Origin: Candidatus Hebobacterum abditum
GTDB taxonomy: Bacteria > Armatimonadota > Hebobacteria > Hebobacterales > Hebobacteraceae
Reading direction: 5' to 3'
Length of the DNA: 64,000 bases
Assembly (NCBI GenBank): GCA_029821875.1
Contig: JALGXW010000031.1
Coordinates: 1 to 64,000 of the forward strand
Under the pieces are notes generated by a model. That model ran no database searches. It had not been told where the DNA came from and was given only the letters and a program-made list of their open reading frames with translations. Positions 5,776 to 57,770 of the stretch are shown here, piece by piece (position 1 is the first letter of the stretch; every line of letters begins with the position of its first letter). The position numbers were made by a program, and so were the translations under genes.

Positions 5776-6558
5776 ATGTTCGGCTTACTGAAGCGTCTCT
5801 TCCGAAGGACACCGCAGCCTACGTGGCACCAGCTGTATGTCATCTACACGAAGGACCCGGACCCGCCTAGATGGGCTGCCAGCATCGGCGCCTCGATGCC
5901 AGTAACAAGCGAGTTCCACACGCGAGAAGAGGACGAAGGCTTGTTCGACTCGGCCGCGGCCGAGTTGGCGCTTCTCGGCGACTCCGAGGCGGACGCCCTC
6001 GCCGCATGTCAGGGGGCAGTGCATCTTGGCGCCTCCTGTCCGGCCGATGAGAAGGCATTCCTCAAGGTGGCGCGCCTCGCCTGCGACCTGGCGTCGCGCG
6101 AGTCCGGCTACCTCTCGAGTGTCGGTGCTTGTGCCACCTACCGCGCGGACGAATGGCGCAAGGAACTGGGCCAGTTTGACATCTTGAAGCTCACAAAGCT
6201 TCATGTTGTCGGAGATAGGGGCCCGGCCTGGGTCCATACCCACGGCCTGCGCCAGTTCGATCTCCCCGAGCTCGAGATCAAGCAAGTCCCACCGGAACTC
6301 ATCGACGCCGCCTCTCGCTGCATCTTGGGAATGGCCGAGTGGATGCGCGCGGGCGAGCGCTTCGAGGACGGCCACACCGTCGAGGTCCCTTGGAATCCCG
6401 GCAACTGGGCCATCTGTCAGTCCATACGAGCCGAAGAGAACGAAGACCACGGCGAGCCGGAGTACGCCCTTCTGCGCCTATCTGACTGCGAACCCGGAGG
6501 TCACCGCACGCACCCAGGCCTCACGCGGTTCCTTCGGGGGCTCACCGAAGCCGAGTAG
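5776..6558 (+). CDS. Uncharacterised cytosolic protein (weak DUF4261-like resemblance)
   Basis: 260 aa with a good ribosome site (GGAGGGGG, 5 nt before ATG). There is no signal peptide or membrane span; the first 12 residues are basic (LLKRLFRRTP). The segment WVHTHGLRQFDLPELEI (about residues 152-168), followed by helices and EDGHTVEVPWNPG, weakly recalls DUF4261-type proteins. Otherwise I do not recognise it. It stands alone on the plus strand between the DUF6785 gene and the convergent DUF166 gene and is followed by a strong hairpin. Confidence 0.6.
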   Translation: MFGLLKRLFRRTPQPTWHQLYVIYTKDPDPPRWAASIGASMPVTSEFHTREEDEGLFDSAAAELALLGDSEADALAACQGAVHLGASCPADEKAFLKVARLACDLASRESGYLSSVGACATYRADEWRKELGQFDILKLTKLHVVGDRGPAWVHTHGLRQFDLPELEIKQVPPELIDAASRCILGMAEWMRAGERFEDGHTVEVPWNPGNWAICQSIRAEENEDHGEPEYALLRLSDCEPGGHRTHPGLTRFLRGLTEAE

Positions 6559-6647: not shown

Positions 6648-7349
6648 CTACGTCGGGCCCGCCTTGCGCGCTGCCTCCAGCGCCTCCTTCACCCGGTCGC
6701 GAATGAGGTAGAGCGATGCGTGCATGATCGTCTCGCCGGTGGACGGGTCGAGAGCCATGGAGCTCAGACACGGGTAGGCGTGATGGAACTGACCCGCCTT
6801 CTCCGGAAGCTCATCATCCGCCGGCAGGCCTACCAGCCTCTGCGCAACGAAGTCCGTGAGGCCGCAAGGCGCGCCCCGAGCCACCTCCACCTCGGCCACT
6901 GTCCCGCCTTCGAGCTTGAACCTGAAGGTTGGCGCCCCCACCTCGTACGCGTCGCAGAACTCGGTGATGGTCGGCGTGCCGGGCTCGAGGGCACAGAACG
7001 GCTTCGGGAACGCAGACTCCATGTCGTTCTGCGCGCAGGCCTGGGTCACTTGTCGCTGGAGGCCGGGCTTGATCCAGTTCGGGTCCTCGACCGGCGCGAT
7101 CAACGCCTTGGTGCTGCCGCCGCCTACCATGTTGGGGATCTCAAGCAGCAACTCCGGATGGATGTTGATGGCGATAATCACGTCCCCCGCACCCAGCTCG
7201 GCCGGCAGATACTCCGCCGCATCGTCGAGCACCGGCGGCAGCGACCGCGGGAGTTGATAGGCGTCCACGAGTCCGGGCGACACCTCCGACAGACGCGCGA
7301 GCACGCGCTCGAAGTACCGCCCCCCCTCGTGCACGATCTCTACACGCAC
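6648..7349 (-). CDS. DUF166-family protein at the distal end of the Wood-Ljungdahl operon
   Basis: 233 aa, starting at GTG 7349 with AGGAGG 8 nt upstream. The sequence matches the DUF166 pattern known mainly from methanogens and acs-bearing bacteria: NIHPELLLEIP, AVIAPVEDPxW-like (ALIAPVEDPNWIKPGL), FPKPFCAL, APCGLTDFVAQRLVG and HHAYPCLSSM. The three Cys-containing motifs (PFC, APCG, YPC) could form a metal or cofactor site; that is inference. The gene follows acsE by 31 bp on the same strand, so it is probably co-transcribed. The family has no established function, and its place after the methyltransferase suggests a role in acetyl-CoA synthase or corrinoid maturation or in C1 metabolism. 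Confidence 0.8.
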   Translation of the reverse strand: MRVEIVHEGGRYFERVLARLSEVSPGLVDAYQLPRSLPPVLDDAAEYLPAELGAGDVIIAINIHPELLLEIPNMVGGGSTKALIAPVEDPNWIKPGLQRQVTQACAQNDMESAFPKPFCALEPGTPTITEFCDAYEVGAPTFRFKLEGGTVAEVEVARGAPCGLTDFVAQRLVGLPADDELPEKAGQFHHAYPCLSSMALDPSTGETIMHASLYLIRDRVKEALEAARKAGPT

Positions 7350-7380: not shown

Positions 7381-8166
7381 TTACGCCCGATAGGCCTTCA
7401 GGAAGTCGTCCGCGTAGACGGCCTTGTTGAGGAGAACCTCCGACGCTATCATCGCGTCCATGAGTTCCGTATCCAGAACGTCCAGGATCGCTGCGTCCAG
7501 ACCGGCCGCGAGCGCCATCACGAGATAGGTGCGGTTGAGCAGCTCCCGCAGCTGAGTCCCCTGGGAGACGTTGCTCAGGCCGAGCACGGTCTTCGGCGGC
7601 GGGTCAGACAGGACCTTGATGTTCCGGATGGTCTCCAGAACATGGTTCGGCGTTGACTGAGCGACGTTCACCGGAAGGATCACGCCGTCAATCATCAGGC
7701 GGTCCGGGTCGAGCCCCTTCTCCATCGCCGCCGCGACGACGCGGAGGGCGATCTCTCCGCGGCCGTTCGCGTCCCGCGGAATGCCGTTTTCGTCGATCGT
7801 GAGAGCGATCAGCGACGCGTTGTGCTCGACAGCCATCGGTATGAAGATGTCGAGCTGATCCTGTTGGCCCTTCGTCGAGTTGATGACCGAGCCCGGTCCG
7901 GCCAGCTCCAGGCCCTTGCTCATGACGTCCGGTTTCGTCGTGTCGATGGCGAGGGGCGCGTCGGTGACTTCTCGAACGGCCTTCACAAGCCACTCCATCG
8001 CGGCCAGCGGGTCGGCCGCGGCCGGCCCGACATTCACGTCGAGGCAGTTCGCCCCGGCCGCCAGTTGCTGCTTCGCCAGATCGTGGATCGGCTCCGGGTC
8101 CTGCGCTTGGATCGCCTCCCGAACAGCCTTGAACATCCCGTTGATGCGCTCGCCAATGGCGTACAC
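7381..8166 (-). CDS. acsE: Methyltetrahydrofolate:corrinoid/iron-sulfur protein methyltransferase
   Basis: 261 aa from GTG 8166, preceded by GGAGG 9 nt upstream; this matches the usual length of about 262 aa. AcsE moves the methyl group from methyl-THF to the Co(I) centre of the AcsCD corrinoid protein in the cytosol. The TIM-barrel pterin-binding pattern is clear: VYAIGERINGMFK at the N-terminus, LDVNVGP, LAIDTTKPDV, STKG and VLGLSNVSQG, with PxNxVxxS-like NVAQSTPNHVLE. The gene lies 4 bp after acsD. Confidence 0.95.
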   Translation of the reverse strand: MYAIGERINGMFKAVREAIQAQDPEPIHDLAKQQLAAGANCLDVNVGPAAADPLAAMEWLVKAVREVTDAPLAIDTTKPDVMSKGLELAGPGSVINSTKGQQDQLDIFIPMAVEHNASLIALTIDENGIPRDANGRGEIALRVVAAAMEKGLDPDRLMIDGVILPVNVAQSTPNHVLETIRNIKVLSDPPPKTVLGLSNVSQGTQLRELLNRTYLVMALAAGLDAAILDVLDTELMDAMIASEVLLNKAVYADDFLKAYRA

Positions 8167-8170
8167 TAGC

Positions 8171-9142
8171 CTAAGCCTCCTCGCCCATAAGAGAGTCAAT
8201 CGTCTTCCGAAGGAGCGCGACCGCCCGCGGATGCCACATCACCAGTATGTCGGTCCCCCCGTTGAGAAAGCACGTCGCCGTCGTGGTCTCCCACGACACG
8301 CCGCGCTCTTCCGCCGCCCCCCACTCCGGGGCGGCCTCCTCGGGGCTCCTCGCCTCCTTGGCCTTCCACGCCTCCGGCCCGACGACCGACAGCATGGGCA
8401 TGGCGAGCATCCGGTCTCCGCCGAGAGCCGCCAGCCGCGTCCGCTCCATGATGGAGTAGGCGTACTCCATGCCGTACCCAAGCCCGCCCGTCGCCTGGAA
8501 CATGACGATCCGCGACAGGTCGAGCCCCATCTCCGATACGAGGATGTTCGCCTGCTTCTGGATGTTGATGTCGATCGGTGCCTCGGTGATCAGCTTGTGT
8601 CCGTCAGCCATGCAGGCCGCCGTGATCGTCTTGTAGTTATCCTCCGTCGCCGTGCCGAGCAGGCAGTTCTCTCCCGCCGCCACCTCGCTGCACCGGGGCA
8701 TGATCTCGTTGTCCTTGTCCGGCTGCCCGCAGCCCCAGATGATGAGAGGAACGCCAACCGCGCCGAGCACAGACTTCACAGCCTGCGCGCAGTCCTCGGC
8801 CGACTTGTTCTCCTGGTCGGGGTGCGCGCCGGCCAATCGCAGACAGACCATGTCGGCGCCGAATTCCTCCACGCACCGCTTCGCCCACACAGCCGGGTCA
8901 TTCACTGCGTCTCCGAAGGCTGCGGAGAGCGGCTCCGGGTAATTTGGCGGCGGCACGTCGAGCACTTCCATCGCGATGGCCGGGCGATTGGGCGTGTCTC
9001 CCTCGAAGCCAAGGAATGGAAGAGTCGTCTCACCGCCGACCGTCACTGTGGAGGTGCGCGTTCCGCCATCGGCTTCGGCGGCCCCGATGGTGAGTGCACT
9101 CACGGCGGCCGTCCATTTCTCCACGGGAATCTCGAACGCCAT
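8171..9142 (-). CDS. acsD: Corrinoid/iron-sulfur protein small subunit (CODH/ACS delta)
   Basis: 323 aa with GAGGGAG before ATG 9142. AcsD is the TIM-barrel subunit that pairs with AcsC to form the corrinoid methyl carrier between AcsE and acetyl-CoA synthase. Recognisable features are the N-terminal FEIPVEKWT, AIAMEVLDVPP, VCLRLAGAHPDQ, WGCGQPDKDNEI, GENCLLGTATEDNYK, EAPIDINIQKQ and the glycine-rich QATGGLGYGMEYAYSIMERTR. It is sandwiched between the DRTGG gene (2-bp gap) and acsE (4-bp gap), consistent with one transcript. Confidence 0.95.
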   Translation of the reverse strand: MAFEIPVEKWTAAVSALTIGAAEADGGTRTSTVTVGGETTLPFLGFEGDTPNRPAIAMEVLDVPPPNYPEPLSAAFGDAVNDPAVWAKRCVEEFGADMVCLRLAGAHPDQENKSAEDCAQAVKSVLGAVGVPLIIWGCGQPDKDNEIMPRCSEVAAGENCLLGTATEDNYKTITAACMADGHKLITEAPIDINIQKQANILVSEMGLDLSRIVMFQATGGLGYGMEYAYSIMERTRLAALGGDRMLAMPMLSVVGPEAWKAKEARSPEEAAPEWGAAEERGVSWETTTATCFLNGGTDILVMWHPRAVALLRKTIDSLMGEEA

Positions 9143-9144
9143 GT

Positions 9145-10251
9145 CTACGCTCCCTCTCTCACATCGATTGGCTGTGTTCCGGGCGCGCCCCCCAGTCCGG
9201 CGATGGCCGAGATCCTCTTCAGGTCAACATGCTCTCGGAAGAGCACCCGCGCCCGTTCGACCTTCGCGCTCTCCCTCACTCTGAGCCTGCCCGTCACGTG
9301 CTCAATGCGCTCTACCGTCGCCAGGGTGTCGTGCGGCGCGAGCAGCAGCGGCACACCCAGCTGCTGGGCTCGCTTCACTATCGGGCTACTGGGGTAGATG
9401 TTGCCGGTCAGCACGATCGCCTTCGTTGCCGTCTGCAGAGCGGCGAGCTGGATGTCCGCTCGATCGCCGCCTGTGATCACCGCCTTGTCGGCCAGTTGGC
9501 GGAAGTACTTCGCGGCGCTGGCTACCCCCATGGCTCCGATGACGAAGTGCACAACGAGTTCGTCCAGAGCTTTCTCGCAGCACAGCAGCTTCGCCGGCAG
9601 ATGCTCGGAGAGTTCTCTTATCGTAATCGCGCCGAGCAAGTCGTCCGGCGGGAGCGCTCCGAGTACCGGGATCCCGCGTCGCTCCAAGTAGCGTCCCAGC
9701 GTGCCGCGCAGCGCCTCTTGCTCGTCCGGCCCTACGAAGTTGAAGATGACGCCGCCGAACCGATCGCCAAGCAGACGCTTTGCCAGCAGCACCTCCTCAA
9801 CCATCGGCTCTGCAGACAGCTTATCCAGCAGTATGACTCGCGCGTCCAGAAGATCGGCTATCGCGGGAGCCGAAAGCCTCAGCAGCGACCCTCTCGACAA
9901 GTCGCCAACTCCGCCGACGAGCATCACGTCCCGGCCCTGGCACACCCGCTCGTAGCTCTCCCGGATGCGCTCGGGCAGACCTTTCACGTCCCCTTGGAGC
10001 GCGCTTTCCACAAGCTCTGGGCTGAGCAGTACGGGGCAGATGTCCTCAGACGGCGCCTCCGGGTTGAGGAGGCTGCTGATGAAATGTGCGTCCTCGTCGG
10101 TCGTCACGTCTCCGACCGTGTGCGGCAGCGTGCCGAGGGGCTTGAAGTAACCGACTCGGACCCCTCCGTCGCGCAGCGCCAGACCGATCGCAAGCGCAGT
10201 CAGAGACTTGCCTGCGAAGCTGTCGACGGAGGCTATGTAGAGCGGCCTCAT
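9145..10251 (-). CDS. BioD-like ATPase plus DRTGG-domain protein (N-terminal half of phosphotransacetylase type)
   Basis: 368 aa, overlapping the upstream activator gene by 4 nt (ATGA). The N-terminal part is a dethiobiotin-synthetase-like P-loop fold: YIASVDSFAGKSLTALAIG with a modified Walker A (residues about 6-20), then VGYFKPLGT and VMLVGGVGDLSRGS. The C-terminal half has the DRTGG-like segment (KAVITGGDRADIQLAALQTATKAIVLTG) that in Pta proteins precedes the catalytic domain. The catalytic phosphotransacetylase domain is absent. Related genes occur near acs genes in other anaerobes. A nucleotide-sensing or CoFeS-protein-associated role is possible but unproven. Confidence 0.8.
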   Translation of the reverse strand: MRPLYIASVDSFAGKSLTALAIGLALRDGGVRVGYFKPLGTLPHTVGDVTTDEDAHFISSLLNPEAPSEDICPVLLSPELVESALQGDVKGLPERIRESYERVCQGRDVMLVGGVGDLSRGSLLRLSAPAIADLLDARVILLDKLSAEPMVEEVLLAKRLLGDRFGGVIFNFVGPDEQEALRGTLGRYLERRGIPVLGALPPDDLLGAITIRELSEHLPAKLLCCEKALDELVVHFVIGAMGVASAAKYFRQLADKAVITGGDRADIQLAALQTATKAIVLTGNIYPSSPIVKRAQQLGVPLLLAPHDTLATVERIEHVTGRLRVRESAKVERARVLFREHVDLKRISAIAGLGGAPGTQPIDVREGA

Positions 10252-12149
10252 GCCCTCAACTCCAGCCTGCTGGCGACCGATGGGAAGCGCTGTAGGTCGG
10301 TGTGCGGCAGAAAGAGCCCTGACACATATCGATCCATGTAGCCCGGCACAACGCTCAACTCGAAATTAGTCATGCGGCCGGCCAACTCCTCCATGCCTCT
10401 GCGCGCCCCGCGGCCGAGCAAGGCGAGTCGCGCCCCGGCGACCGCCGCGTTGCCCACGAATCGGATCCGCTCCAGCGGCACGTCCGGAAGCAGGCCTATC
10501 GTCACGGCGCTCTCGGCGTCCAAGTAGTTGCCGAAGGCGCCCGCCACCAGGATCTGCTCGACGCGGCCGGCATCCAGCCCGAGCGACTCCAACAGCGTTT
10601 CCGCTCCGGCGTATACCGCAGCCTTCGACCGGATCAGATTCTGTATCCCGTCCTCACCGAGGGAGATGTCGTCCGATCTTCCGACCTCTTCTCCCCAGAC
10701 GAACACGAACTCGGGCCGCTCGTTCCGCACCCGCACTCGCCTGCTCGGAAAGCCGAGGTTGATCCGCCCCGCGCGGTCTATGGCGCCGGCCCGCAGGAGC
10801 GCTGCAAGTGCGTCCACGAGCCCCGACCCACAGATTCCCCGCGGCCTCGCGTCGCCGATCGTCACCCACTCCACCTGATCGGTCTCCCGATCGTAGGAGA
10901 GCCGCTCGATCGCGCCCACCGTGGCGTACATCCCGTACTCGACACCCGAGCCCTCAAAGGCCGGGCCGGCCGAGCAGGAACAGCACATCATCCACTCTTC
11001 GTGGCCGATGACCATCTCGCCGTTGGTGCCCATGTCTATGAACAGCGTCAGTCGAGGAGACTGGTCCAGGGCCGTCGCCAAGACTCCCGCCGTGATATCG
11101 CCGCCGACGTAGCTGCTCACACAGGGCGCGAGGTGAACCGGTGCGCGGGGGTGGATGTCCAGCCCGACCTCCCCCGCCCGCAGGACTGGCGCGGCCTTGA
11201 TCGCCGGCACGTATGGCTCTCGACGTATTGCCGCGGGGTCGATCCCGAGGAAGAGATGGGTCATCACCGTGTTGCCGACACAGGCCGCGCCGATGATCTG
11301 CGTCGGCGCCACGCCGTGCTGCCCGGCGACTTCCCGCGCGCATCGATTGACCGTCGCGCGGACTGCATCGCGGAGCTGATCCAATCCCGCCCCGTCCTCC
11401 TGAGCGTGGATGATCCGAGAGATGACGTCCTCCCCGTACGCGATCTGGTCGTTCAGAGAGGCGCACGCGTCGACGAATCCGTGCGTCGCGAGGTCGATCA
11501 ACTGCACGACAACGGTAGTGGTGCCCACGTCGACGGCCAGCCCGTACGCCTCCCCTGCTTGCGGGGGCTCCAGACCGAATACGCGGCCGTCACCACCGAA
11601 GTCTGCCACCAGCGCATCCACGTGCCAGGAGTTCTCGCGCGCCAGGCGGGGCAGGACCCGCAGCGAGGGCAGGTCGATGTCGAAGTGTTCGAAGCTTTCC
11701 CCGCTCGCCTCCGATAGCCGCTGGAGAAGCCTATCCTCGTCGCTGGCGTCGTCCTCCTGCCCCGGGGGCGCCATCTCCGCGGAGACTCGCGAGGCCAGCG
11801 GGGTGCCGGCCTGCGCCGGCTCGCCCGTGACCTCGGCCCTGCCCATGAGTATCTGCAGTTCACCCCGCTGAGACTCGAGTGGCACCTCGACAACCAGGTC
11901 GTCCGCGACCGTCGCCTGGCAGGCCAGCACGATACCTCTCTCGATCTCCTCCCTGGAGAGAGAATCGCCCGGCCTGCCACCGGGCTGGCCGAGCGATACG
12001 ATGACTCTGCATTTGCCGCACGCCCCCTGGCCCCCGCAGGAGGAGTCAATCGCCACCCCTGCCGCGCTCGCCGCCTCCAGGATGGTCCGGCCGGACTCCA
12101 CATCCAGGCACGCGCCGTCTGGCAGGAACACTACTATGTGGCTACTCAT
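10248..12149 (-). CDS. Reductive activator of the corrinoid protein (2Fe-2S ferredoxin plus ASKHA ATPase, RACo-like, DUF4445)
   Basis: 633 aa. The N-terminal ferredoxin domain has Cys38, Cys44, Cys47 and Cys77 in the plant-type 2Fe-2S spacing (SSCGGQGACGKC ... LACQA). The rest is the ASKHA/DUF4445 region: YGLAVDVGTTTVVVQLIDL (ATP phosphate loop), GEDVISRIIHAQE, CVGNTVMTHLFLGIDP, LFIDMGTNGEMVIG and LVAGAFGNYLDAE. RACo proteins use ATP to return inactive Co(II) corrinoid protein to Co(I). The position between acsC and acsD fits exactly. Residues about 130-180, linking ferredoxin and ATPase, are low-complexity acidic and likely flexible. Confidence 0.93.
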   Translation of the reverse strand: MSSHIVVFLPDGACLDVESGRTILEAASAAGVAIDSSCGGQGACGKCRVIVSLGQPGGRPGDSLSREEIERGIVLACQATVADDLVVEVPLESQRGELQILMGRAEVTGEPAQAGTPLASRVSAEMAPPGQEDDASDEDRLLQRLSEASGESFEHFDIDLPSLRVLPRLARENSWHVDALVADFGGDGRVFGLEPPQAGEAYGLAVDVGTTTVVVQLIDLATHGFVDACASLNDQIAYGEDVISRIIHAQEDGAGLDQLRDAVRATVNRCAREVAGQHGVAPTQIIGAACVGNTVMTHLFLGIDPAAIRREPYVPAIKAAPVLRAGEVGLDIHPRAPVHLAPCVSSYVGGDITAGVLATALDQSPRLTLFIDMGTNGEMVIGHEEWMMCCSCSAGPAFEGSGVEYGMYATVGAIERLSYDRETDQVEWVTIGDARPRGICGSGLVDALAALLRAGAIDRAGRINLGFPSRRVRVRNERPEFVFVWGEEVGRSDDISLGEDGIQNLIRSKAAVYAGAETLLESLGLDAGRVEQILVAGAFGNYLDAESAVTIGLLPDVPLERIRFVGNAAVAGARLALLGRGARRGMEELAGRMTNFELSVVPGYMDRYVSGLFLPHTDLQRFPSVASRLELRA

Positions 12150-12197: not shown

Positions 12198-13535
12198 TCA
12201 CGCCTCCCAGGAGGTTCGCAGGAACGTAGGTATGCCGGAGGACTCCCGCGGCCCGACGACGATCTTCCATTCCTGAGACAGTTCGTCCTCAAGCTTCCCA
12301 CTCAGAACAGCTACGTGTCCAGGGATGACCAGCTTCCGATGGTTGACCTTGCTCGCCACGTCGAAGGCCTTCACCTTCTCGGCGATGATCTCGGCGGTGA
12401 ACTTCTCCGCCGCCCAGGCCGTCAGCACAGAGGTCCCTTCGGTGTCGACCACGACCACCCAAGCCGGAACGCGGCTTGCCTCGACATCACCCTCCACGGT
12501 GAAGTACGTCAGTGAGAAGTTGGTCGTCACCAGAACGGGAGAGCTCTCATCGGGCGAGCCGATTTCGTAGAGGCCCTCCTCAATCTGGATCGGCTTCTGC
12601 GGGTCAGTGTAGATGTTCTGCCTGACCGTGACAAGCGTGAGGAGCTCCCATGGCTCCATATTGTTGATGACGACGATGCCCGCGTACTTGGCGATGTACG
12701 TGGCGGCCTGCTGGGTCTCCTCCAACGGATCGGCCCCGTCGGTGAACACTATCGTCGGGAATCCGAGCGGCCGGAATCGCTTCCTCAGGGCCGCCCGCCG
12801 GATCGCGGTCTCGTTGGCCAGCACCGCGGCGGGCTCGCGTGCCCCCGAGTCCAACACCAAGTCAGCAGCGCCGGCCGCCTGCGCCTTCTCCGACAGATCG
12901 GCCAGGGACGACAGATCACTGCCGCGCACGGCCAGTGGGCAGTTGTGCTCTTTGGACAGCGCAGCCATCGCGTCGACGTTCTCGGCCGTGGCCGCGTAGA
13001 TCAGAGGTCGCTTCCCGGCACATGCCTTGAGGGCCTCACCCATGACGGCCGGATCCTCGTTCACCAGTATCAGCGGCACGGCCGACTGCTGGGCCGCGAG
13101 CGCGGCTGCCTTGACGAAGGCTTCCCCCTCTCCCTTCAGCGCGACCGCGTTGAGCGTCAGAGTCTGGCCGACCCGCTCGAAGGAGACGTCGCCTATCGCT
13201 TTGATCCGAGCTGAGAGTTCCGCTTCCGGAAGCGCCGCGTCGACGGCGACGGCGATTCCGGTGGGATGGTAGAAAGTCTCCTCGTGTCGGAACAACACGG
13301 TCTCGTTGCCGACCTCCAGCTTCCTCTCGTCGGCGCCGACCGTGATGAGCTTGATGGGGGGAGCAGCGGCGCCCGAAAGGGCGGCCGTCGCCTCCTCCGA
13401 GACGTGAGGGCACTGGTCCAGGGAGGCCTGCTTCTGCGCCAACTTCATGGCGAAGGCGAGGCAGGTCGGAACTCCGCAGTCCCCGCAGTTGGTCTTAGGT
13501 AGCTGCTTGAAGATATCGAGGCCCGTGAGACCCAC
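12198..13535 (-). CDS. acsC: Corrinoid/iron-sulfur protein large subunit (CODH/ACS gamma)
   Basis: 445 aa from GTG 13535 with GGAGGTGA upstream. The N-terminus carries the 4Fe-4S site of AcsC, Cys17, Cys20, Cys25 and Cys42 (NCGDCGVPTCLAF ... DQC), followed by a TIM barrel and a C-terminal corrinoid-binding region (ATYIAKYAGIVVINNMEP; LVIPGHVAVLSGKLEDEL). The subunit holds the cobamide that accepts the methyl group from AcsE and passes it to AcsB. It lies 41 bp downstream of acsB. Confidence 0.95.
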   Translation of the reverse strand: MGLTGLDIFKQLPKTNCGDCGVPTCLAFAMKLAQKQASLDQCPHVSEEATAALSGAAAPPIKLITVGADERKLEVGNETVLFRHEETFYHPTGIAVAVDAALPEAELSARIKAIGDVSFERVGQTLTLNAVALKGEGEAFVKAAALAAQQSAVPLILVNEDPAVMGEALKACAGKRPLIYAATAENVDAMAALSKEHNCPLAVRGSDLSSLADLSEKAQAAGAADLVLDSGAREPAAVLANETAIRRAALRKRFRPLGFPTIVFTDGADPLEETQQAATYIAKYAGIVVINNMEPWELLTLVTVRQNIYTDPQKPIQIEEGLYEIGSPDESSPVLVTTNFSLTYFTVEGDVEASRVPAWVVVVDTEGTSVLTAWAAEKFTAEIIAEKVKAFDVASKVNHRKLVIPGHVAVLSGKLEDELSQEWKIVVGPRESSGIPTFLRTSWEA

Positions 13536-13576: not shown

Positions 13577-15808
13577 CTACATGAGCGACGGCATCTTAAG
13601 GGCTGGATGCTCCTGTTCTTCCAGCCATGGCATGAGCTCTTCCACGGTTGTCGCGACCGTCTCATCGGCGATCTTGTCGAAGAAACCGTCGAGGCCGAGC
13701 TCGGCCGCGCGCTCGTTGATCTGCTCTGCAAGCGCCTCCTTCAGCTCCTTGGGCATCCAGAGGATCCGGGGTAGTCCGCCCTCGGCCGAGATGAACTTCT
13801 TGCTCACAACGTAGAGCCGCCCAATGCCCAGGAAGCCCGGCGTCTGCAGGCCTCCGCCGACGGTGCCGGCCAGGGTGGTGAACGGCATCCCGCAGGGCGT
13901 GTCTCCTGGATATTCTCTGTTCACGATCATGACGCCGTGGACCTCCCCGGTGGGCTCCGGGAGGATGGCCATTATGCACTCAAAGCAGCCGCACGAGGTC
14001 ATGGGGTCTTCCATAAGGGAGTAGGCGTTGAACCTCTCGACAGACTTGTTGGAGGTCTGGTACACGAACTCGTTCACACCCTCCCATTGACCCTTGTCTT
14101 CGTCGATCGTCTGGCCCTTCGCCACCGGTTGGTTGGCGCCAGCGGGGCTGATCTCGTAGGCGGCCTTGCCGTCGAGCCAGTTGTAGGCGCCACACAGGCC
14201 GAGGCGCTCGGGGCTGATGACACACACATGGTTGGGCGCGTAGGACTGACACAGAGTGCAGGAGTAGAAGATGTCCACGCTCTCGTCTGTCATCCCAGCG
14301 ACCCGCGCGTCGCGCGCGGCCCACACCTTCCTGGCATCCTCCAGGATGGGCTGCATGGCCTCTTCCTCGGTGAAGATCGTCACCTGCACCTTGTCGACGA
14401 GCGCCGGGAACCTCTGTATGTACTCGGCCCGCAGCAGCTCGCCGAAGTGCTTGAGCCGCAGGCCGGACTTGAATGCGTCCTTGGAGATGCGGACCCAACT
14501 CATGTCACGCTGTCCCATGTGGAACACGCCCATGGCGTGGTTCAGCAGCGTGTGGACCTGCCGCTCCAGGATGGGCTCGAAGTCCTCCTGCATCTTGCGA
14601 CCGGCCACCTCGATGTAGACCCCGAGTGGCATCGCCCCGCCCTGCTCGACCGCGTCGCAGTCGGCTCCCACCAACTCGATCTTCCCGTCCTGGACCTGGT
14701 CCATCGGCCGCATCCTGAGGAACTCAAACGCAGTGCTGTACTTGCCACCGAACTGGACCTGCATGTCGTCCCGGCGGACCGTCTCGCCTTCGAAGGCCGC
14801 CGCCACCGGGACGGGGATGTCGATCGTGCTGACGCTGACCTTGACCCCGCGGACCTCCACGCACGTTTCCACGATGCGCTTCTGGTCGAGCTCCCTCACC
14901 AGGGCCTCATAGGTCGTGACCCCGCTGGGGCGGATCTCAGGTATCTCGGTGTCGCAGATCACCGGGAAGCCCATGTTGATCGCGCCGGCGCCGCTGGCGT
15001 ACTTGAGGTCGTCGATGTCGCCCAGCCCAAGTCCGAAGGCGAAGATGCGAGCGCGCGTGTAGTCGAGGCATTCCTTCCACTGGCCCTTCTTGTGGCCGCC
15101 GAAGGTCAGCGCGCCGCGAATCGCCCAGTTGAGGGCGTAGATGATCGACTCCGTGTCCGGGCCGAGCGGAACGATGTAGCGGCCCCACCAGGCCTTCCGG
15201 AGGTCACCATCCTCGGTCTCGGAAGCGTCCTTCGGCAGCACGCCGGCCTCGATGAGCTGATCCCTCATCGTCTCGCCGTTGTGGTTGCCGATGAGGAACG
15301 TGAGGATGTTGCGCTTCTGCAGCTCTCGAATCACGTGAACGGCCGTGTCGACATCGGGCGCGGCCCCGACTATCGCGGCGAATCCAGGGAGGCGGCCGTC
15401 TACGAGCTGAATGCCGAGGGTCCGCAGGATCGTGTCCGAGATGAAGCCATGCCACCCCTCGAGTGGCTCATCGCCTTCGAGATAGGCGATTGCCTTGAGC
15501 AACTCCTCCGCCAGGAGCGTGGCGACGCCGGCGTCCAGGGCGGCCGGGAGGTAGGGCAGCCAGATGTGCTCGGAGGGCTCCTCGGACAGAAGTGACTTCG
15601 CCGTGTCCAGCACCTCGCGGGCCTGTCCCAGGGTCGAGACTTCCAGGCCCAGCAGCGCATAGGCCATCGGCAGGAAGAACGCGGTCTCGGGGAACTCCAG
15701 CGCCTGCGACTCGCCATGCTTCTCGATAGCGCCGTTGAGCTTCTCCTCCGCCCGTGCGACGATCTCATTCGATCCCCGTATCGCAGCTGTGGCAACGGTC
15801 TTCGACAT
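13577..15808 (-). CDS. acsB: Acetyl-CoA synthase catalytic subunit (CODH/ACS beta, bacterial type)
   Basis: 743 aa from ATG 15808, chosen because AAGGAG lies 8 nt upstream; an in-frame GTG is 9 nt earlier. AcsB joins the methyl group, CO and CoA at the Ni-Ni-4Fe4S A-cluster. All six A-cluster cysteines are present: 517, 520, 529, 539 (CTLCQSYAPNHVC ... GLCGAYNW), 606 and 608 (SCGCFEC). Their spacing (3, 9, 10, 67, 2) is the same as in Moorella AcsB. The N-terminal CODH-docking domain missing from archaeal CdhC is present, so this is the bacterial form. Confidence 0.97.
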   Translation of the reverse strand: MSKTVATAAIRGSNEIVARAEEKLNGAIEKHGESQALEFPETAFFLPMAYALLGLEVSTLGQAREVLDTAKSLLSEEPSEHIWLPYLPAALDAGVATLLAEELLKAIAYLEGDEPLEGWHGFISDTILRTLGIQLVDGRLPGFAAIVGAAPDVDTAVHVIRELQKRNILTFLIGNHNGETMRDQLIEAGVLPKDASETEDGDLRKAWWGRYIVPLGPDTESIIYALNWAIRGALTFGGHKKGQWKECLDYTRARIFAFGLGLGDIDDLKYASGAGAINMGFPVICDTEIPEIRPSGVTTYEALVRELDQKRIVETCVEVRGVKVSVSTIDIPVPVAAAFEGETVRRDDMQVQFGGKYSTAFEFLRMRPMDQVQDGKIELVGADCDAVEQGGAMPLGVYIEVAGRKMQEDFEPILERQVHTLLNHAMGVFHMGQRDMSWVRISKDAFKSGLRLKHFGELLRAEYIQRFPALVDKVQVTIFTEEEAMQPILEDARKVWAARDARVAGMTDESVDIFYSCTLCQSYAPNHVCVISPERLGLCGAYNWLDGKAAYEISPAGANQPVAKGQTIDEDKGQWEGVNEFVYQTSNKSVERFNAYSLMEDPMTSCGCFECIMAILPEPTGEVHGVMIVNREYPGDTPCGMPFTTLAGTVGGGLQTPGFLGIGRLYVVSKKFISAEGGLPRILWMPKELKEALAEQINERAAELGLDGFFDKIADETVATTVEELMPWLEEQEHPALKMPSLM

Positions 15809-15859
15809 CAGCTCCACTCCTTAGCAACGACTCTCACATCCGACCCGCGCGGCCTCCAG

Positions 15860-16771
15860 TCAGAGGCCTGCGGCCTCCAGCACTGCCGGCACGTGGTGCC
15901 CCCAACCCAGGGGCATCAGGTGTACCCCCGCGCAGTGCGGCCGAAGATCCCGGATCAGCCGCGCGGCTATCTCGATGCTGGTCTTCGTTCTGAAGTCGGC
16001 TTTCTTCCCCTCAGCCCTGGCCGACCTGTCCTTCTCGCCGGCCGCGCTCATCTCCCTGATGAGACTATCGGGCACGAACACGCCGGCGACGTTTGCGTTC
16101 ATGTAGCGCGCCATTCCGGCCGACTTGAGGAGCACGATCCCGGCCAGGATCGGCACGTCAACGTCCGCCACTCGCTCCATGAACTTGGCGAACGTATCTG
16201 CATCGTACATGGCCTGTGTCTGGATGAACCTGGCGCCCGCGCGGACTTTGTTATGAAGCTTGTAGATCTGTGGCTCGACGGGGTCGGCGCGCGGTGTAAC
16301 GATAGCTCCCAGGAACAGGTCCTCGGGTGGGCCCGCCAGTTCGTTCCCACTCAGGTCGCGCCCCTCGATCAACCCCTGGGCTGCCTGCAGCAGGGAAACC
16401 GAATCCAAGTCGAAGACGGGCTTCGACTCCGGATGGTCGCCGAGGACCACGTGATCTCCGGTGAGGCACAGCACATTTCGAATCCCGAGCACATATGCGC
16501 TGAGCAGTTCGCTCTGGAGCGCCAGCCGATTCCGGTCTCGGCACACCATTTGCAGGATGGGCTCGAGGCCTTTCTGCTCGAGGAGCGTACATGTCGCAAG
16601 CGAGCTCACCCGCATGGAGGCGGCCTGAAGATCGGTCACGTTGAGGCCGGCGACGCGCCCGCGGAGGAGTTCGGCCTCCTCCAGCACGTGCTCCATGTTC
16701 ACGCCCTTCGGCGGCGCTACCTCACACGTGATGGTGGAATCCTGCGACTCCAGAGCTTCCCTGAACGTCAT
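15860..16771 (-). CDS. metF: Methylenetetrahydrofolate reductase
   Basis: 303 aa. MetF reduces methylene-THF to methyl-THF, the last methyl-branch step before AcsE. The TIM-barrel family signs are FxxxxEVxPPKG-like (TITCEVAPPKGVNMEH), NVTDLQAASMRVSS, LCLTGDHVVLGDHPESKPVFDLDSV (split by flavin-contacting Asp residues) and GARFIQTQAMYDADTF. It follows metV by 43 bp, the arrangement of the MetVF complexes of acetogens. No NADH-binding domain is fused, so electrons must arrive through a partner. Confidence 0.94.
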   Translation of the reverse strand: MTFREALESQDSTITCEVAPPKGVNMEHVLEEAELLRGRVAGLNVTDLQAASMRVSSLATCTLLEQKGLEPILQMVCRDRNRLALQSELLSAYVLGIRNVLCLTGDHVVLGDHPESKPVFDLDSVSLLQAAQGLIEGRDLSGNELAGPPEDLFLGAIVTPRADPVEPQIYKLHNKVRAGARFIQTQAMYDADTFAKFMERVADVDVPILAGIVLLKSAGMARYMNANVAGVFVPDSLIREMSAAGEKDRSARAEGKKADFRTKTSIEIAARLIRDLRPHCAGVHLMPLGWGHHVPAVLEAAGL

Positions 16772-23830: not shown

Positions 23831-25768
23831 TCAGCTGGCGGGCGCCGCCGCTTCCTCGGCCTCATACATCATCGGGCGAAGCTTGAGCGCCGCCCGCTTC
23901 TCGTTCATATGCTCGATCATCATTCTTGCGGCGGCGACGGGATCTGCCTCGAAGGCCCAGGTGGCCCCGAAGTCCTCCTCCATCCCCTTGGTGAGGTAGT
24001 CGTGGACGGCCGGGGAGCCCTCCACCGGCAGCGAGTTGCCGAACACGGTGAAGATGCCGGAGCCGACGACGTACATGCCGATGGCCACCGCCTTCTCGGA
24101 CATCCACTCGGGGGCCGCGCCCGCGACGGGGAGATCGCTGAGATCCTCGCCGAGGCCACCCTCTTTGATCATCTCACAGCAGGCGACGAGGATGCGGCTG
24201 TTGTCTACGCAGGCTCCTACGTGGAGCACCGGCGGGATGCCCACCGCCTCGCAGATCTCCTGGAGGCCGCGTCCCGCGTACTTGGCGGCGGCCTCGGGGG
24301 CGAGGAGACCCTCCTTGGCGCAGGCAATGGCCGCGCAGCCGGTCTGCACCACGAGCACGTCGTTGCGGATCAGCTCCTTGACCATGTCGACGTGGCCCTG
24401 CTCGACGGGCTGGAAGTTCGGGTTGCAGCAGCCGACCACCCCGGCGACGCCGCGCAGCCGTCCCTCAATGATGCCGTTGTTGAGGGGGCGGTAGGAGGGG
24501 CGGAAGCTGCCGCCCAGCATCCGGAATACGTACTCGGTGGTGAACCCGGCGACCAGGTCCATCGGGTGCTGCGGGATGCTGACGGTCTCTGGGTCCCGGT
24601 CCGGGAACTTCTCGATGGCAACGCGAATGATCTCGCGCGCCACGTCCAGCGCGCGCTCTTCGTCGAACTCAATGTGCCGGACGCCCGGCATGCGCGCCTT
24701 TGGCGAAGTTGTGACCAGCTCGGTGTGAAAGCACTTCGCCACCTCGGGCAGCGAGGGCATGAGGCACTGGACGTCCACCACCATCGCCTCCACCGCGCCG
24801 GTGGCGATGGCGAGCTCCTGCTCCAGGAACTGGCCGGCGGAGGGAATGCCCTGTCGCATGAGGACCTCGTTGGCCGTGCAGCAGACGCCGCTGAGCTGAA
24901 TGCCCTTCGCGCCCTTCTCCTCGGCGAGCTTGATGAGCTCCGGATCGCGGGAGGCCTCCACGATCATGTCCGAGAGAATGGGCTCGTGGCCGTGGACCAG
25001 GACGTTCACTTTGTCGTTGCTGATGACGCCGAGGTTGACCTTGCCGCGGACGGGCAGGGGGGAGCCGAGCATGATGTCCTGGAGGTCGGTGCCGATCATG
25101 GAGCCGCCCCAGCCGTCGGCGAGCGCGGTGCGGACGCCGTGACGTATGATGTTCTTGTAGTCGGTGTCGACGCCCATTGTGGTGCGGTGCATGCACTCGA
25201 CGACTTCGCGGTCTATGCCGCGGGGGGTCACGCCCTGCTTCTGCCAGACCTCTTGCCGCGTCTCGGGGGCGCGCTTGAGAAGGCGCAACTGCCCCTCTTG
25301 CTGGCCGAACTCCGAGAGTGCGGCGGCGGCGAGTTCACGGGCGATCTCTTGGGAGGGCTTGCCGTCGGTCTCCAGCCCATACTCCGCGGCGACGCGGCGC
25401 AGCTTCACCTCATCTTTGACGGAGTAGTCCTTGGCCTTGCCCTCCCCCATCAGCAGCAGCGTGTGGGCGACGCTGCGGCCGTGGTCGGAGTGGGCGGCGG
25501 TGCCGGCGGCAACCATCCTGCTTACGTTTCGTGCGACGACAGTGTCGGCGGTGGCGCCGCAGACTCCAATCCTCTCGCCCCTCGCCGAGGTGCCGACCCG
25601 GCAGGGGCCCATGCTGCAGATTCGGCAGCAGATTCCTTCTCTGCCAAAGCGGCAGGAAGGCTGCTGAGACTCGAAGCGATCCAGCGCCGTCAGCACACCC
25701 CGCTCCTCGGCCGTCTGTAGGGCCGCCTGGCTGGCCGGATCTCTCATCCGCTTTCCGTTGTCACCCAT
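23831..25768 (-). CDS. cooS: Anaerobic (nickel) carbon monoxide dehydrogenase catalytic subunit
   Basis: 645 aa with AAGGAG 9 nt before ATG. The enzyme interconverts CO2 and CO for AcsB. The D/B-cluster cysteines 39, 47, 48, 51, 56 and 70 fall at the same residue numbers as in Carboxydothermus CODH-II. The C-cluster ligands are present: His261 (VHGHEP), Cys297, Cys335, Cys448, Cys478 and Cys520 (GACVDNSR). The gene heads the Wood-Ljungdahl block after cooT. No cooC nickel ATPase gene is seen; CooT may take part in nickel delivery. Confidence 0.97.
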   Translation of the reverse strand: MGDNGKRMRDPASQAALQTAEERGVLTALDRFESQQPSCRFGREGICCRICSMGPCRVGTSARGERIGVCGATADTVVARNVSRMVAAGTAAHSDHGRSVAHTLLLMGEGKAKDYSVKDEVKLRRVAAEYGLETDGKPSQEIARELAAAALSEFGQQEGQLRLLKRAPETRQEVWQKQGVTPRGIDREVVECMHRTTMGVDTDYKNIIRHGVRTALADGWGGSMIGTDLQDIMLGSPLPVRGKVNLGVISNDKVNVLVHGHEPILSDMIVEASRDPELIKLAEEKGAKGIQLSGVCCTANEVLMRQGIPSAGQFLEQELAIATGAVEAMVVDVQCLMPSLPEVAKCFHTELVTTSPKARMPGVRHIEFDEERALDVAREIIRVAIEKFPDRDPETVSIPQHPMDLVAGFTTEYVFRMLGGSFRPSYRPLNNGIIEGRLRGVAGVVGCCNPNFQPVEQGHVDMVKELIRNDVLVVQTGCAAIACAKEGLLAPEAAAKYAGRGLQEICEAVGIPPVLHVGACVDNSRILVACCEMIKEGGLGEDLSDLPVAGAAPEWMSEKAVAIGMYVVGSGIFTVFGNSLPVEGSPAVHDYLTKGMEEDFGATWAFEADPVAAARMMIEHMNEKRAALKLRPMMYEAEEAAAPAS

Positions 25769-38657: not shown

Positions 38658-39347
38658 CTACCTCTCGCTCCCCTTCTCGGATGGCTTCTCGGCGAGGTGC
38701 CGCTCGAGTAGCTGCTCCAGGCGGTTGGCCGAGAGGCCTTTCCCGCTTGCCACGACCTCTCCGTCCACCACCACGGTTGGTGTCATCATGACGCCATGGC
38801 GATCCGCTTCCGCCGAGAGGATGTCGTGCTTGCGTACGACGACTCGGCCTGGGTGTCGCTCCGCCAGCCTCCGCGCGATGCGTTCCGCCTGGATACACTT
38901 CAGACAGGGAAAGATGGCACCGAACTCCTTGATGCCGTAGAAGATCTTGACCTCCACCGCGCCCTCGTCGGCGCTCCCCTCCTCCTCCACGGTCTGTCCC
39001 TCGGAGCGCGGCCGCGCGGGGGTCCGCACGGCCATGTCAGGGATGTTGAGGTGCGGCGCGCACCTGGACGCGATGTCCTCGGGGCAGCGCTTCACCTCCC
39101 AGCAAGGGATCAGATCCAGCAGCCGCCGTATGCCCGCCGTGGTCAGGCTGTGGCCATGAATCAGCTCCGAGATGCAGCGAATCCATATCAGGTCCTGATC
39201 GCTGTAGAGACGCTGGTCCGATCCCGGCTTCCGAGCGGGCCGAATGAGGCCCTCGCCCTCATAGACACGCAGAGTACGAGCGCTAAGCCCAACTTGCTGT
39301 GCCGCCATGCCGATCTGGTAGACCGGCGCACCGCGGTCTCTCTCCAC
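38658..39347 (-). CDS. MerR-type regulator fused to a thioredoxin-like domain
   Basis: 229 aa from GTG 39347 (AGGAGGT about 7 nt upstream; another GTG is 9 nt earlier). The N-terminal winged-helix MerR domain reads YQIGMAAQQVGLSARTLRVYEGEGLIRPAR, with a Cys-rich effector segment LIPCWEVKRCPEDIASRC (about residues 78-95). After a charged linker, the C-terminal ~90 residues form a thioredoxin/glutaredoxin-like fold: VKIFYG, redox motif CLKC, and cis-Pro loop MMTPTVVVDG. The fusion suggests sensing of a thiol-reactive metal(loid) or redox state. It is divergent from the DGC genes it may control. Confidence 0.85.
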   Translation of the reverse strand: MERDRGAPVYQIGMAAQQVGLSARTLRVYEGEGLIRPARKPGSDQRLYSDQDLIWIRCISELIHGHSLTTAGIRRLLDLIPCWEVKRCPEDIASRCAPHLNIPDMAVRTPARPRSEGQTVEEEGSADEGAVEVKIFYGIKEFGAIFPCLKCIQAERIARRLAERHPGRVVVRKHDILSAEADRHGVMMTPTVVVDGEVVASGKGLSANRLEQLLERHLAEKPSEKGSER

Positions 39348-39377
39348 TCGACTCACCTCCTCGCGAGTCCCTGCCTG

Positions 39378-54071: not shown

Positions 54072-54368
54072 CTACAGGTACCCGAGGTCCTCTAACCGTG
54101 CACGGATCTCGTCAAGGTGCGCGGGCTCCAGCTCCCTGCTCACGGCGAGGCCCGACAACGGATGCTGCAGCTTCCCCCAGGGGATCCAGTGCCACAGACG
54201 TTCGTGGAGGTAGTAGAAGAGGAGCTTCGCAACGACCTCCACGGCGCCGACCCCAACTGCCAGCGCGATCTCCCTGGTGAACCCATACACGACGAGCATG
54301 GTCGTCACGGTGGCCACGACGCGCCAGGAGATCGCCTTCGCGACGCTGCGCTTGTGGTACTCCCGCAC
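54072..54368 (-). CDS. DUF2061 membrane protein with LGY tail
   Basis: 98 aa. Residues 1-66 match DUF2061: KRSVAKAISWRVVATVTTMLVVYGFT, two hydrophobic helices, then VEVVAKLLFYYLHERLWHWIPWG. DUF2061 is known to occur next to or fused with APS kinase/sulfate-activation genes. An extra ~32 residues end in IRARLEDLGYL, matching the tail of the APS kinase encoded two genes upstream. It is the last gene of the minus-strand sulfate-activation operon. Confidence 0.88.
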   Translation of the reverse strand: MREYHKRSVAKAISWRVVATVTTMLVVYGFTREIALAVGVGAVEVVAKLLFYYLHERLWHWIPWGKLQHPLSGLAVSRELEPAHLDEIRARLEDLGYL

Positions 54369-54425
54369 GTTAGTCTTCCTCCTCCATGGTCGGACTGAGG
54401 CCGCGATGCCAGCGGCCCGGGGGCC

Positions 54426-55720
54426 TCAGCCGGAAAGCCATTCGACGATTGCTCCGGCTGGCTCTGATATGTCAGGATCATCGGGCACCGGCAGGAGGCT
54501 CCACAGGAAGGCGTCGTCCCAGGTGTGCATTCCCTGGAAGTGAGACTGACCGAAGACGTGCCCTTGAGATCGAAGCCATCGTGGCCTATGGCCACCAGGT
54601 CGGCCGCGAGGGTGGCCTTCGGGCCGTGGAATGCCTCCTCGCGGGTGAAGACGCGAGCTATCACCGGCCGCCCCCCGAACTCCAGAGATCCCAGCCGCTC
54701 GGCCAGCTCTTGGCGAAGGGCGGGCGCGTCGTCGGGATCGACACAGCCCTGCGAGAAGCGCCCCCGCGTGTTGATGTGAATGCGGCCCGGGTCGAGCGCG
54801 AAGGCGCGTGTGTCAGGTGAGATATCGGCTACGGAGGTCGGATCCTCCTTCTCGTAGCTCAAGTAACCACTCTCGCGGAGCCAGGAATTCAGCCGGACAT
54901 CCTGTTGCAGGCGCGTGAATCCGTGGTCGGAGAGCAACAGGAACCCCTCTCCCTCTCGGTCGCCTGGCCGCCCCTGGTGGAGCCTGTCCCAGAGATCACC
55001 GACGAGATCATCCACAGCTCGATAGTAGGTCATCGCACGGTCATGGCGCGGGTCGTCGGCGTCATCGACCGCACTCCACAGGAAATGATGCAGGCGGTCG
55101 GTGCCGGTTACGACGACCTGGAAGTAGTCCCAGGCTTCGCGCTCCCAGAAGTACCTGACCGCCTCCGCCCGGGCCTTGAGCGTTGCGTCGAGATCGTCGA
55201 GGAGGCCGTCGGGGTCTTCCCGTGCCTTCTGCGTGTTGACATCTATGCGGTAGCCCATTCGCTCCAGTGCAGGCAGATGGTCGCGGGGCCACACGCTCTT
55301 CTCAAGCTGCAGCGCGACGAACCCCGAGACGAGTGCGCCAGCTATGTCTCGCGCGGGATAGGTGGCCGGCTGGTTGATGACGGCCGAGCGGCGGCCCTGC
55401 TTGCCGAGCGTATCCCAGAACGTCGGCACGGCCAGGTCAGTGAACGTGGGGAAGCGAAGTTGATAGCTGTCGGCCGATACGTCGGTGAAGCCGAAGATGC
55501 CATGCTCAGCCGGGTTGGCGCCGGTCATGAAGCAGGACCAGCTTACCGAGGAAACGGGTGGCAGGGACGCCCGCATCTCCCGCAGGCCCCCGCTCCCGAT
55601 GATGGCGGCCACGCGGGGCATGACGGACTCACCGGCCAGGCGCTGGAGCAGCCCGTGGGGCACCCCGTCAAGTCCCACCGCGCACACCCGTCTCTTCCTG
55701 CGGTCCCGGAAGAAGAGCAT
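54426..55720 (-). pseudogene. Type I phosphodiesterase-family protein (4), frameshifted near the C-terminus
   Basis: The frame from ATG 55720 (no signal peptide, likely cytosolic) shows VCAVGLDGVPHG, nucleophile region PPVSSVSWSCFMTGANPAEHGIFGF, TGTDRLHHFLW and LSDHGFTRL. After GHDGFDLKG, near 54558-54559, the frame is lost. In the next frame the sequence continues VFGQSHFQGMHTWDDAFLW ... AIVEWLSG and stops at 54426, 58 bp before DUF2061. One missing base explains it: the restored gene would be exactly 432 codons. Unrepaired, the frame runs into the DUF2061 gene in nonsense sequence and loses the late metal-binding His (GMHT). It could be a sequencing indel. Confidence 0.85.
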
Positions 55721-55733
55721 ATTCGCTGCAGCC

Positions 55734-56336
55734 CTAGATGTAGCCCAGGTCCTTCAGCCGCTGCTTGATGCTCTCTTCTTCGTCATCACTGTAGCCGCGG
55801 CCATCCCCGGCCGGGATGTAGCTGAGCTGTTCGAGAGTGGCGACTATCCGCTGGACACAGGTCTCGATGTCTTCGTTGCCCGTATCGACAACAACCTCGG
55901 CGTTCTCCGGCGGCTCGTAGGGGTCGCTCACGCCGGTGAAGTTCTGAATCTCGCCCTTCAGAGCTTTGTCGTAGAGGCCCTTCGGATCGCGGCCCTTCAG
56001 GGTATCGATATCACACTTGCAGTAGACCTCTACGAAGCGGCCGATAAGCTCGCGGTTCTCGTCTCGGATCTCCTTGTAGGGCGAGATGGCAGCCGATATG
56101 GCCACCACGTCGTTGCGCGTCAGCAAGTGGCACACCCACCCGATCCGCCGGATGTTCGTATCGCGATCCTCCTTCGAGAAGCCCAGGCCCTTGCTGAGGT
56201 TCGTACGCACTTGGTCGCCGTCGAGCACCTCGACCTTCATCCCGCGTTCGAGCAATATGTCTCGCACGCGCTCCGCGAGTGTACTCTTGCCAGATCCCGA
56301 AAGACCTGTGAACCACAGTGTGAATCCCTTCGCCAT
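55734..56336 (-). CDS. cysC: APS kinase with an added C-terminal LGY tail
   Basis: 200 aa. CysC phosphorylates APS to PAPS, the universal sulfate donor. The P-loop GLSGSGKST (residues about 10-18), [45 protein letters not shown] and [22 protein letters not shown] are all typical. The canonical domain ends near residue 173; a further ~27 residues, acidic then basic ([18 protein letters not shown]), are an added tail shared with other proteins of the locus. Sat is encoded upstream on the same strand, beyond phosphodiesterase 5. Confidence 0.95.
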
Positions 56337-56380
56337 CTCTCACCTTTCCTGCACGGATTGCACCAGGGCCGAGGCCCTTC

Positions 56381-57760: not shown

Positions 57761-57770
57761 TCTCGGCCTC

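Follow-up and report, generated by a model that had tools for sequence, protein, structure and literature searches.

DUF166, the last gene of an acs cluster in Candidatus Hebobacterum abditum, as a putative accessory protein of CO dehydrogenase

What might a DUF166 protein contribute when its gene lies at the end of a gene cluster for CO dehydrogenase/acetyl-CoA synthase (CODH/ACS)? The question is raised by a contig of Candidatus Hebobacterum abditum (Armatimonadota), whose first 64,000 nucleotides were analysed as a whole and are called the window here. The DUF166 gene closes a same-strand cluster that includes CooS, AcsB, AcsC, AcsV, an AAA_26-DRTGG protein, AcsD and AcsE (Table 1). Its placement agrees with the preliminary description of this DNA: it is the final gene of the minus-strand operon run, 31 bp after acsE (start codon from 7349, end of the acsE ORF at 7381), and the ORF that comes next, 5776..6558, is oriented convergently. 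A good Shine-Dalgarno site, CAGGAGGATGGTCGG, was read by eye ahead of the GTG codon, and no promoter- or terminator-like sites were found on the minus strand between 5500 and 9500. The family assignment is not due to chance, since the protein matches PF02593 at E = 2.1e-50, far over the cut-off (171.8 bits against a gathering score of 24.4, profile positions 5-220 of 221, Pfam). The gene is single-copy in the source genome, which is 95% complete. The names Fhs, FchA, FolD, MetF, MetV and hydrogenase are putative and were given to genes of the window from their sequences. The AAA_26-DRTGG protein (9145-10251, minus strand) resembles the regulatory N-terminal region of certain phosphate acetyltransferases, and it lies between acsV and acsD in the window as well as in relatives L022-L026 and L030-L032.

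Table 1. Coordinates of the DUF166 gene, its predicted domains and conserved codons, and the acs gene cluster in the window (residue numbers count the start Met).
Feature	Position	Strand	Basis or remark
DUF166 (PF02593) gene	6648..7349	minus	GTG start, 233 aa
N-terminal Rossmann-like domain, predicted (residues 1-134)	6948..7349	minus	AF2 model, VIA-align
C-terminal IscU/SufU-like domain, predicted (residues 135-233 and stop)	6648..6947	minus	AF2, VIA-align, hhalign
Cys119 codon (PFC)	6993..6995	minus	invariant, 71/71
Cys162 codon (APCG)	6864..6866	minus	invariant, 71/71; pairs with IscU Cys63
Cys194 codon (YPC)	6768..6770	minus	invariant, 71/71
His210 codon	6720..6722	minus	69/71; pairs with IscU His105
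acsE-like methyltransferase (Pterin_bind)	7381..8199	minus	ORF as listed, family scan
acsD (CODH/ACS delta)	8171..9142	minus	family scan
AAA_26-DRTGG protein, within the acs operon	9145..10251	minus	family scan
acsV (corrinoid reductive activator)	10248..12149	minus	family scan
acsC (gamma)	12198..13535	minus	family scan
acsB (acetyl-CoA synthase)	13577..15817	minus	family scan
metF-like ORF	15860..16771	minus	putative name, from sequence; homologues occupy the corresponding position in relatives
cooS (Ni-CODH), upstream end of the same-strand cluster	23831..25768	minus	alignment with other CooS, C-cluster motifs

The gene had been proposed to encode a Wood-Ljungdahl accessory protein, and a phylogenetic profile against CdhC/AcsB bears this out, excluding an independent distribution in three phylum samples. 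DUF166 and CdhC/AcsB were found, respectively, in 9 and 18 of 101 genomes from Armatimonadota, the phylum of the window (both in 8; Fisher p = 2e-6), in 131 and 156 of 236 genomes from the phylum to which an Archaeoglobus genome belongs (both in 126; p = 2e-30), and in 14 and 80 of 259 genomes from the Thermosediminibacter phylum (both in 13; p = 1e-6), with p values that ignore shared ancestry. In a sample of mixed phyla, made of the 40 genomes behind 40 of the 80 DUF166 loci described below and overlapping in part with the other sets, CdhC was present in 36 of the 40. The ninth Armatimonadota genome with DUF166 (G097), which has no CdhC match, carries the operon on a contig that ends inside acsB. 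Across these sets, ten genomes have DUF166 and no CdhC match; six of these encode CooS above the curated cut-off, one (G172) has only weak CdhA-like matches, inside an 816-codon frame that we read as CdhA, and three small genomes (G118, G366, G377) have neither CdhC nor a CODH above the cut-off.

The converse does not hold. DUF166 is missing from 10 of 18 CdhC-bearing genomes in the window's phylum (three of the 10 on cut contigs), from 30 of 156 in the Archaeoglobus phylum and from 67 of 80 in the Thermosediminibacter phylum. Since the sequence continues past acsE in some of these genomes of the window's phylum (G008, G083, G090, G010, G033), DUF166 is not universal among CODH/ACS genomes and is not a general requirement for CODH/ACS. 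A genome of the same genus as the window (G023), in which no DUF166 was seen, has a contig that ends inside acsD. The remark that the family is best known from methanogens was right in part: it is frequent in the Archaeoglobus phylum, as the counts above indicate, and is not confined there, being also present in Bathyarchaeota, Asgard archaea, Nitrospirota, Actinomycetota, Bacillota and Armatimonadota. Records of near relatives carry the titles Candidatus Hebobacteria, Zipacnadia and Armatimonadota. We take COG1810 to be the same family as DUF166. Passages of a 2007 study (PMC1852104) give MMP0976 (COG1810), together with MMP0984 (a CO dehydrogenase protein), as specific to all methanogens and A. 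fulgidus.

Gene neighbourhoods were compared across 80 DUF166 loci, 21 of Armatimonadota type and 59 others. DUF166 directly follows acsE in all nine DUF166 genomes of the window's phylum (eight relatives and the window). CooC-like P-loop ATPases adjoin it in 14 of the 21 Armatimonadota-type loci, mostly at positions +1 and +2, with 4-bp overlaps in L050, L052, L053 and L057; for the three CooC-like proteins tested, the best solved relative was CooC (3kje; E = 1e-37, 7e-14 and 2e-50). No CooC was found in the window, and relatives from the window's own family have none at that position. In Bacillota, the order CooS-CooC-Fhs-DUF166-FchA-FolD-MetV-MetF is preserved in whole or part (L099, L112, L167, L169, L171-L174 and the short contig L168), with CooC checked against solved structures in L112 and grouped by BLAST in L099; the succession fhs-DUF166-fchA recurs in eight Bacillota loci and one short contig. 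Within the fetched stretches, CODH/ACS or methyl-branch genes lie near DUF166 in 8 of the 59 other loci (L063, L067, L099, L111-L113, L116, L117). Most archaeal loci are without linked cdh genes, and the neighbours there are thioredoxin-like, OsmC, ODP-flavodoxin, AsnC, NrdJ or PcrA genes.

Some of these neighbours recur. In the Bathyarchaeota (L071-L110), DUF166 repeatedly adjoins the gene of a protein of about 214 aa with a thioredoxin domain, and genes for OsmC, ODP-flavodoxin and P-type ATPases lie nearby. In L089 (6569-9745), the gene directly upstream of DUF166 encodes an intein-bearing PcrA helicase. At two Actinomycetota loci, L062 (7595-9736, family-scanned) and L066 (grouped by BLAST), the gene of a B12-dependent ribonucleotide reductase (NrdJ) is followed by DUF166, and CdhC is encoded elsewhere in both genomes. 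A divergent second DUF166 subfamily of about 240-260 aa, unlinked to CODH genes, was observed in Bacillota (L155, L162-L165).

The Bacillota order fhs-DUF166-fchA-folD, the NrdJ neighbours at the two Actinomycetota loci and a Rossmann-like N-terminal domain (see below) would all suit an enzyme of the methyl branch or of nucleotide metabolism, for instance a folate-linked one or one resembling thymidylate synthase, which we take to be an old annotation of DUF166. We nevertheless consider such a role improbable: ThyX is also present in 17 of the 35 DUF166 genomes included in the ThyX search, fusion to CooS and adjacency to CooC are ill-suited to a folate enzyme, and among the hosts of DUF166 are archaea with other C1 carriers.

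The link to CODH is also physical: DUF166 is fused to the N-terminus of Ni-CODH (CooS) in seven Bacillota genomes (G410, G587, G674, G710, G707, G708 and G692), the fusion being complete in six and cut by a contig end in G692. The fusion protein has about 900 aa (in G410, DUF166 at 20-263 and Prismane/CODH at 309-877, Pfam), and the genes upstream of the six complete fusions are AcsE-AcsD-CdhA-CdhB-CdhC-CdhE. An alignment with the CooS of the window indicates that the B- and D-cluster cysteines and the motifs that we take to be those of the C-cluster ligands are kept in all seven. No further fusion was found among the three genomes of the order of G410 except in G410 itself. At the place that the fusion holds in those genomes, G658 has cdhE followed by a free DUF166 of 255 aa and a CooC-like gene (CooC2), and G709 has a free DUF166 of 265 aa, near a contig end. 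The divergent Bacillota subfamily mentioned above sometimes shares a genome with the fusion. In L166 and L202, a single gene run contains CdhA, CdhB, CdhC and CdhE of archaeal type next to AcsB, AcsC and AcsV of bacterial type, and the fusion lies between the two sets.

Operon linkage occupies several separate positions in a quick tree of 117 DUF166 sequences (from 73 of the 80 relative loci and others): the label 'linked to CODH/ACS/WLP' changes seven times, six of them forced by well-supported branches, in a count that includes losses and on a tree where long branches are a warning sign of error. Each of four groups is a single clade: the Armatimonadota, the sequences next to fhs, the fusions and the cdh-linked Clostridia. 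Linked archaeal cases are scattered. The fusion clade and that of the cdh-linked Clostridia fall together, and a single event may account for the fusion and its closest linked relatives. DUF166 shows what is expected of an accessory protein of CODH/ACS, namely co-occurrence with CODH/ACS and operon linkage or fusion with its genes, the latter lacking at most archaeal loci. We put the probability that DUF166 partners CODH at about 0.85, and its tie to CODH (CooS/CdhA) and CooC is at least as close as that to ACS.

As to what DUF166 would do for CODH, the PFC, APCG and YPC motifs pointed out previously are present (residues 117-119, 160-163 and 192-194). In an alignment of 71 sequences (67 of the 79 translatable loci, the window protein and three from Bacillota), their cysteines are invariant, as are Gly138, Pro161 and Gly163, and His64 (68/71), Glu88 (70/71) and His190 (65/71) are strongly conserved. 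Residues that could serve as ligands of a metal or an Fe-S cluster are thus conserved (Cys119, Cys162, Cys194, His210, His64 and His190). The suggestion that these motifs bind a metal or an FeS/Ni centre gains indirect support from the three invariant cysteines and from the IscU-like fold predicted for the C-terminal half. At the N-terminus, 48 of the 71 aligned relatives and all six complete fusions carry an additional four-Cys motif of Fe-S type, which is missing in the clade of the window protein and in the Clostridial fhs clade.

The four-Cys motif, and the attachment of the fusion at the N-terminus of CooS, the site of the D-cluster cysteines, bring in the main rival to cluster delivery by DUF166. 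DUF166 would here be an electron-transfer or docking module of CODH, comparable to CooF, with an Fe-S cluster of its own that takes electrons at the D-cluster end of CooS. Like CooF and ferredoxin partners, it would be a small Cys-rich partner of CooS; unlike them, the window protein has no match to Fer4-type Pfam families. Moreover, the two clades named above as having no four-Cys motif are nevertheless linked to CODH/ACS, the invariant core cysteines are not spaced as in ferredoxins and two of them lie inside the IscU-like domain, and the closest kin have CooC as a neighbour. We therefore regard electron transfer as unlikely. A metal or CO sensor or regulator that is co-inherited with CODH and has no maturation role would be compatible with a Rossmann-like fold, conserved Cys and His residues and the many unlinked archaeal copies. 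Against it, Pfam detects no DNA-binding or signalling domain in DUF166, and fusion to an enzyme and gene overlap with CooC would be unusual for a regulator, which leaves this reading little credit.

The structural argument comes from models. The AF2 model of the window protein has a mean pLDDT of 96.9, and its residues 1-139 match Rossmann domains with a VIA-align Z of about 10. The C-terminal 99 residues, for which a separate model was built with 63 of the 71 aligned sequences (pLDDT 92.9), gave best rows against IscU/ISCU2 with Z of 7.0-7.5, rmsd of 2.7-3.4 and 82-87 residues aligned, a range that can reflect a common arrangement and that ties with CoxM-type domains, since the C-terminal domains of CoxM/xanthine dehydrogenase FAD subunits reached Z of about 5-7.8. 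For neither model did Foldseek return a match with E of 1e-3 or lower (0.076 or worse for the C-terminal domain); the absence of a family from its results excludes nothing.

Profile comparison separates the two likenesses. With hhalign, the C-terminal domain of DUF166 against 16 IscU/NifU/SufU sequences gave P = 0.0018 locally and 0.00025 globally over 85 columns; the best of 65 decoy segments reached 0.058 and 0.087, and reversed profiles 0.58-0.6. Three CoxM-type sequences together gave P = 0.19, and CoxM-type comparisons were at 0.19 or worse; this domain equals IscU in VIA-align Z and differs in having no profile similarity to DUF166. The Armatimonadota rows alone reached a local P of 0.00035 over 78 columns against the IscU set, and the remaining rows 0.0053. 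However, hhalign probabilities were low (the whole profile scored 15-20%, the Armatimonadota rows by themselves 23-37% and the others 6-7%), local P against single IscU sequences spread from 0.004 to 0.35, and a HMMER search of PDB sequences found no relative of the window protein or of profiles A2 and A3. Kinship of the C-terminal domain with IscU is therefore suggested by sequence profiles and models. PF01592 (NifU_N) gave no match in DUF166 up to E = 10, and E. coli IscU, the positive control, was recovered at 2.4e-55.

The hhalign alignment pairs Cys162 with Cys63 of IscU and His210 with His105. Among the three residues that we take to be the ligand cysteines of E. coli IscU (Cys37, Cys63 and Cys106), the other two have no counterpart, as Cys37 falls in a gap and Cys106 pairs with Ala211, a variable position. 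DUF166 would thus share with the IscU/SufU/NifU scaffolds the predicted fold of its C-terminal domain, an alignment over 85 columns and counterparts of Cys63 and His105, and would differ by its missing Cys37 loop (PACGD) and Cys106-position cysteine, by an added N-terminal Rossmann-like domain and by the invariant Cys119 and Cys194, as well as by the lack of a PF01592 match.

Our best reading of these data is that DUF166 is a metallocluster maturation or delivery factor dedicated to CODH/ACS. In this role as an accessory protein that serves specifically Ni-CODH and CODH/ACS, it would hold a labile iron-sulphur (or Ni-Fe-S precursor) cluster, with Cys162 and His210 at the positions of IscU Cys63 and His105 and with Cys119 and Cys194 probably completing a three-Cys/one-His site. 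It would then pass this cluster to the apo form of CODH (CooS or CdhA), either before CooC inserts nickel or along with that step; in one Bacillota group, DUF166 and CODH would have merged into one polypeptide. We infer cluster binding, its transfer and its order relative to CooC from the IscU-like domain, the three invariant cysteines and histidine, and the company of CooC. Action as a cluster scaffold is accordingly a candidate mechanism to which we give slightly less than even odds. A new type of scaffold, in which an IscU-like domain is borne on a Rossmann-like domain and serves the Fe-S part of CODH or the A-cluster of ACS ahead of CooC, is more doubtful and put forward tentatively. DUF166 resembles the CODH nickel maturases CooC, CooJ and CooT in genomic company, CooC adjoining it in many relatives, and likely in purpose; it differs from CooC, a P-loop ATPase, in its predicted fold and in having no match to P-loop Pfam families in the window protein.

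Another reading concerns sulphur chemistry. DUF166 might be a sulphur- or thiol-handling enzyme that protects CODH/ACS and other anaerobic enzymes, or regenerates them, by SufU-like sulphur transfer or by thiol/selenol redox repair. SufU, a relative with the IscU fold, is annotated as a sulphur-transfer protein, the Bathyarchaeal neighbours are thioredoxin-like, OsmC and ODP-flavodoxin genes, and relatives containing Sec have been reported, DUF166 being tabulated as a selenoprotein family in portions of PMC9312934 and PMC13188914. The existence of such selenoprotein relatives suits redox chemistry better than it suits scaffolding. We found no selenocysteine position in DUF166, and no in-frame stop among the DUF166 matches listed. 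The window protein shares its superfamily with DfsP (NF041372), a DUF166 family (seleno)protein, as a partial match of 55.1 bits indicates, and differs from it by scoring well under the curated cut-off of 200 bits and by having Cys codons only, with no in-frame stop. Co-distribution with CODH is narrower than general redox repair would predict, and the observed fusions are to CooS only, so that we hold sulphur or thiol handling to be even less likely than electron transfer. A maturation or delivery factor remains the preferred reading.

To our knowledge, little is understood of how the CODH C-cluster acquires its iron-sulphur framework ahead of nickel, and a naturally CODH-fused, Cys-rich helper would offer a direct handle on its assembly. 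Co-expression of DUF166 with CODH/ACS may raise the active yield, which is relevant to CO2-reducing biocatalysts. The proposed role would also give a function to a family found in methanogens, ANME, Asgard archaea and several bacterial phyla. Beyond the preliminary description, the present analysis adds the CooS fusions, the placement beside CooC and between fhs and fchA, and the IscU-like C-terminal half. In the portions covered, the text of reviews and surveys of CODH maturation (PMC6006190, PMC6344411, PMC13056359) does not name DUF166; the first gives as CODH accessory proteins only the nickel-handling helpers CooC, CooJ and CooT, and the main text of the last, a 2026 eLife survey, contains neither 'DUF' nor 'fusion'. 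The supplements of Inoue et al., 2019 (PMC6344411) contain tables of enriched COGs and of fused Ni-CODHs, in which the DUF166 link or fusion may already appear. A literature search returned nothing for PF02593 or for MMP0976, although PMC1852104 prints the latter tag with a superscript, which makes such zeros weak.

Two further features of the window were observed away from the acs cluster. A MerR regulator is fused to a Thioredoxin_3 domain (38658-39356, minus strand, Pfam). At 54305-58916, APS kinase and ATP sulfurylase genes lie amid genes resembling type I phosphodiesterase/nucleotide pyrophosphatase, three of them family-scanned, and further phosphodiesterase/pyrophosphatase-like ORFs were recognized by eye at about 46-58 kb.
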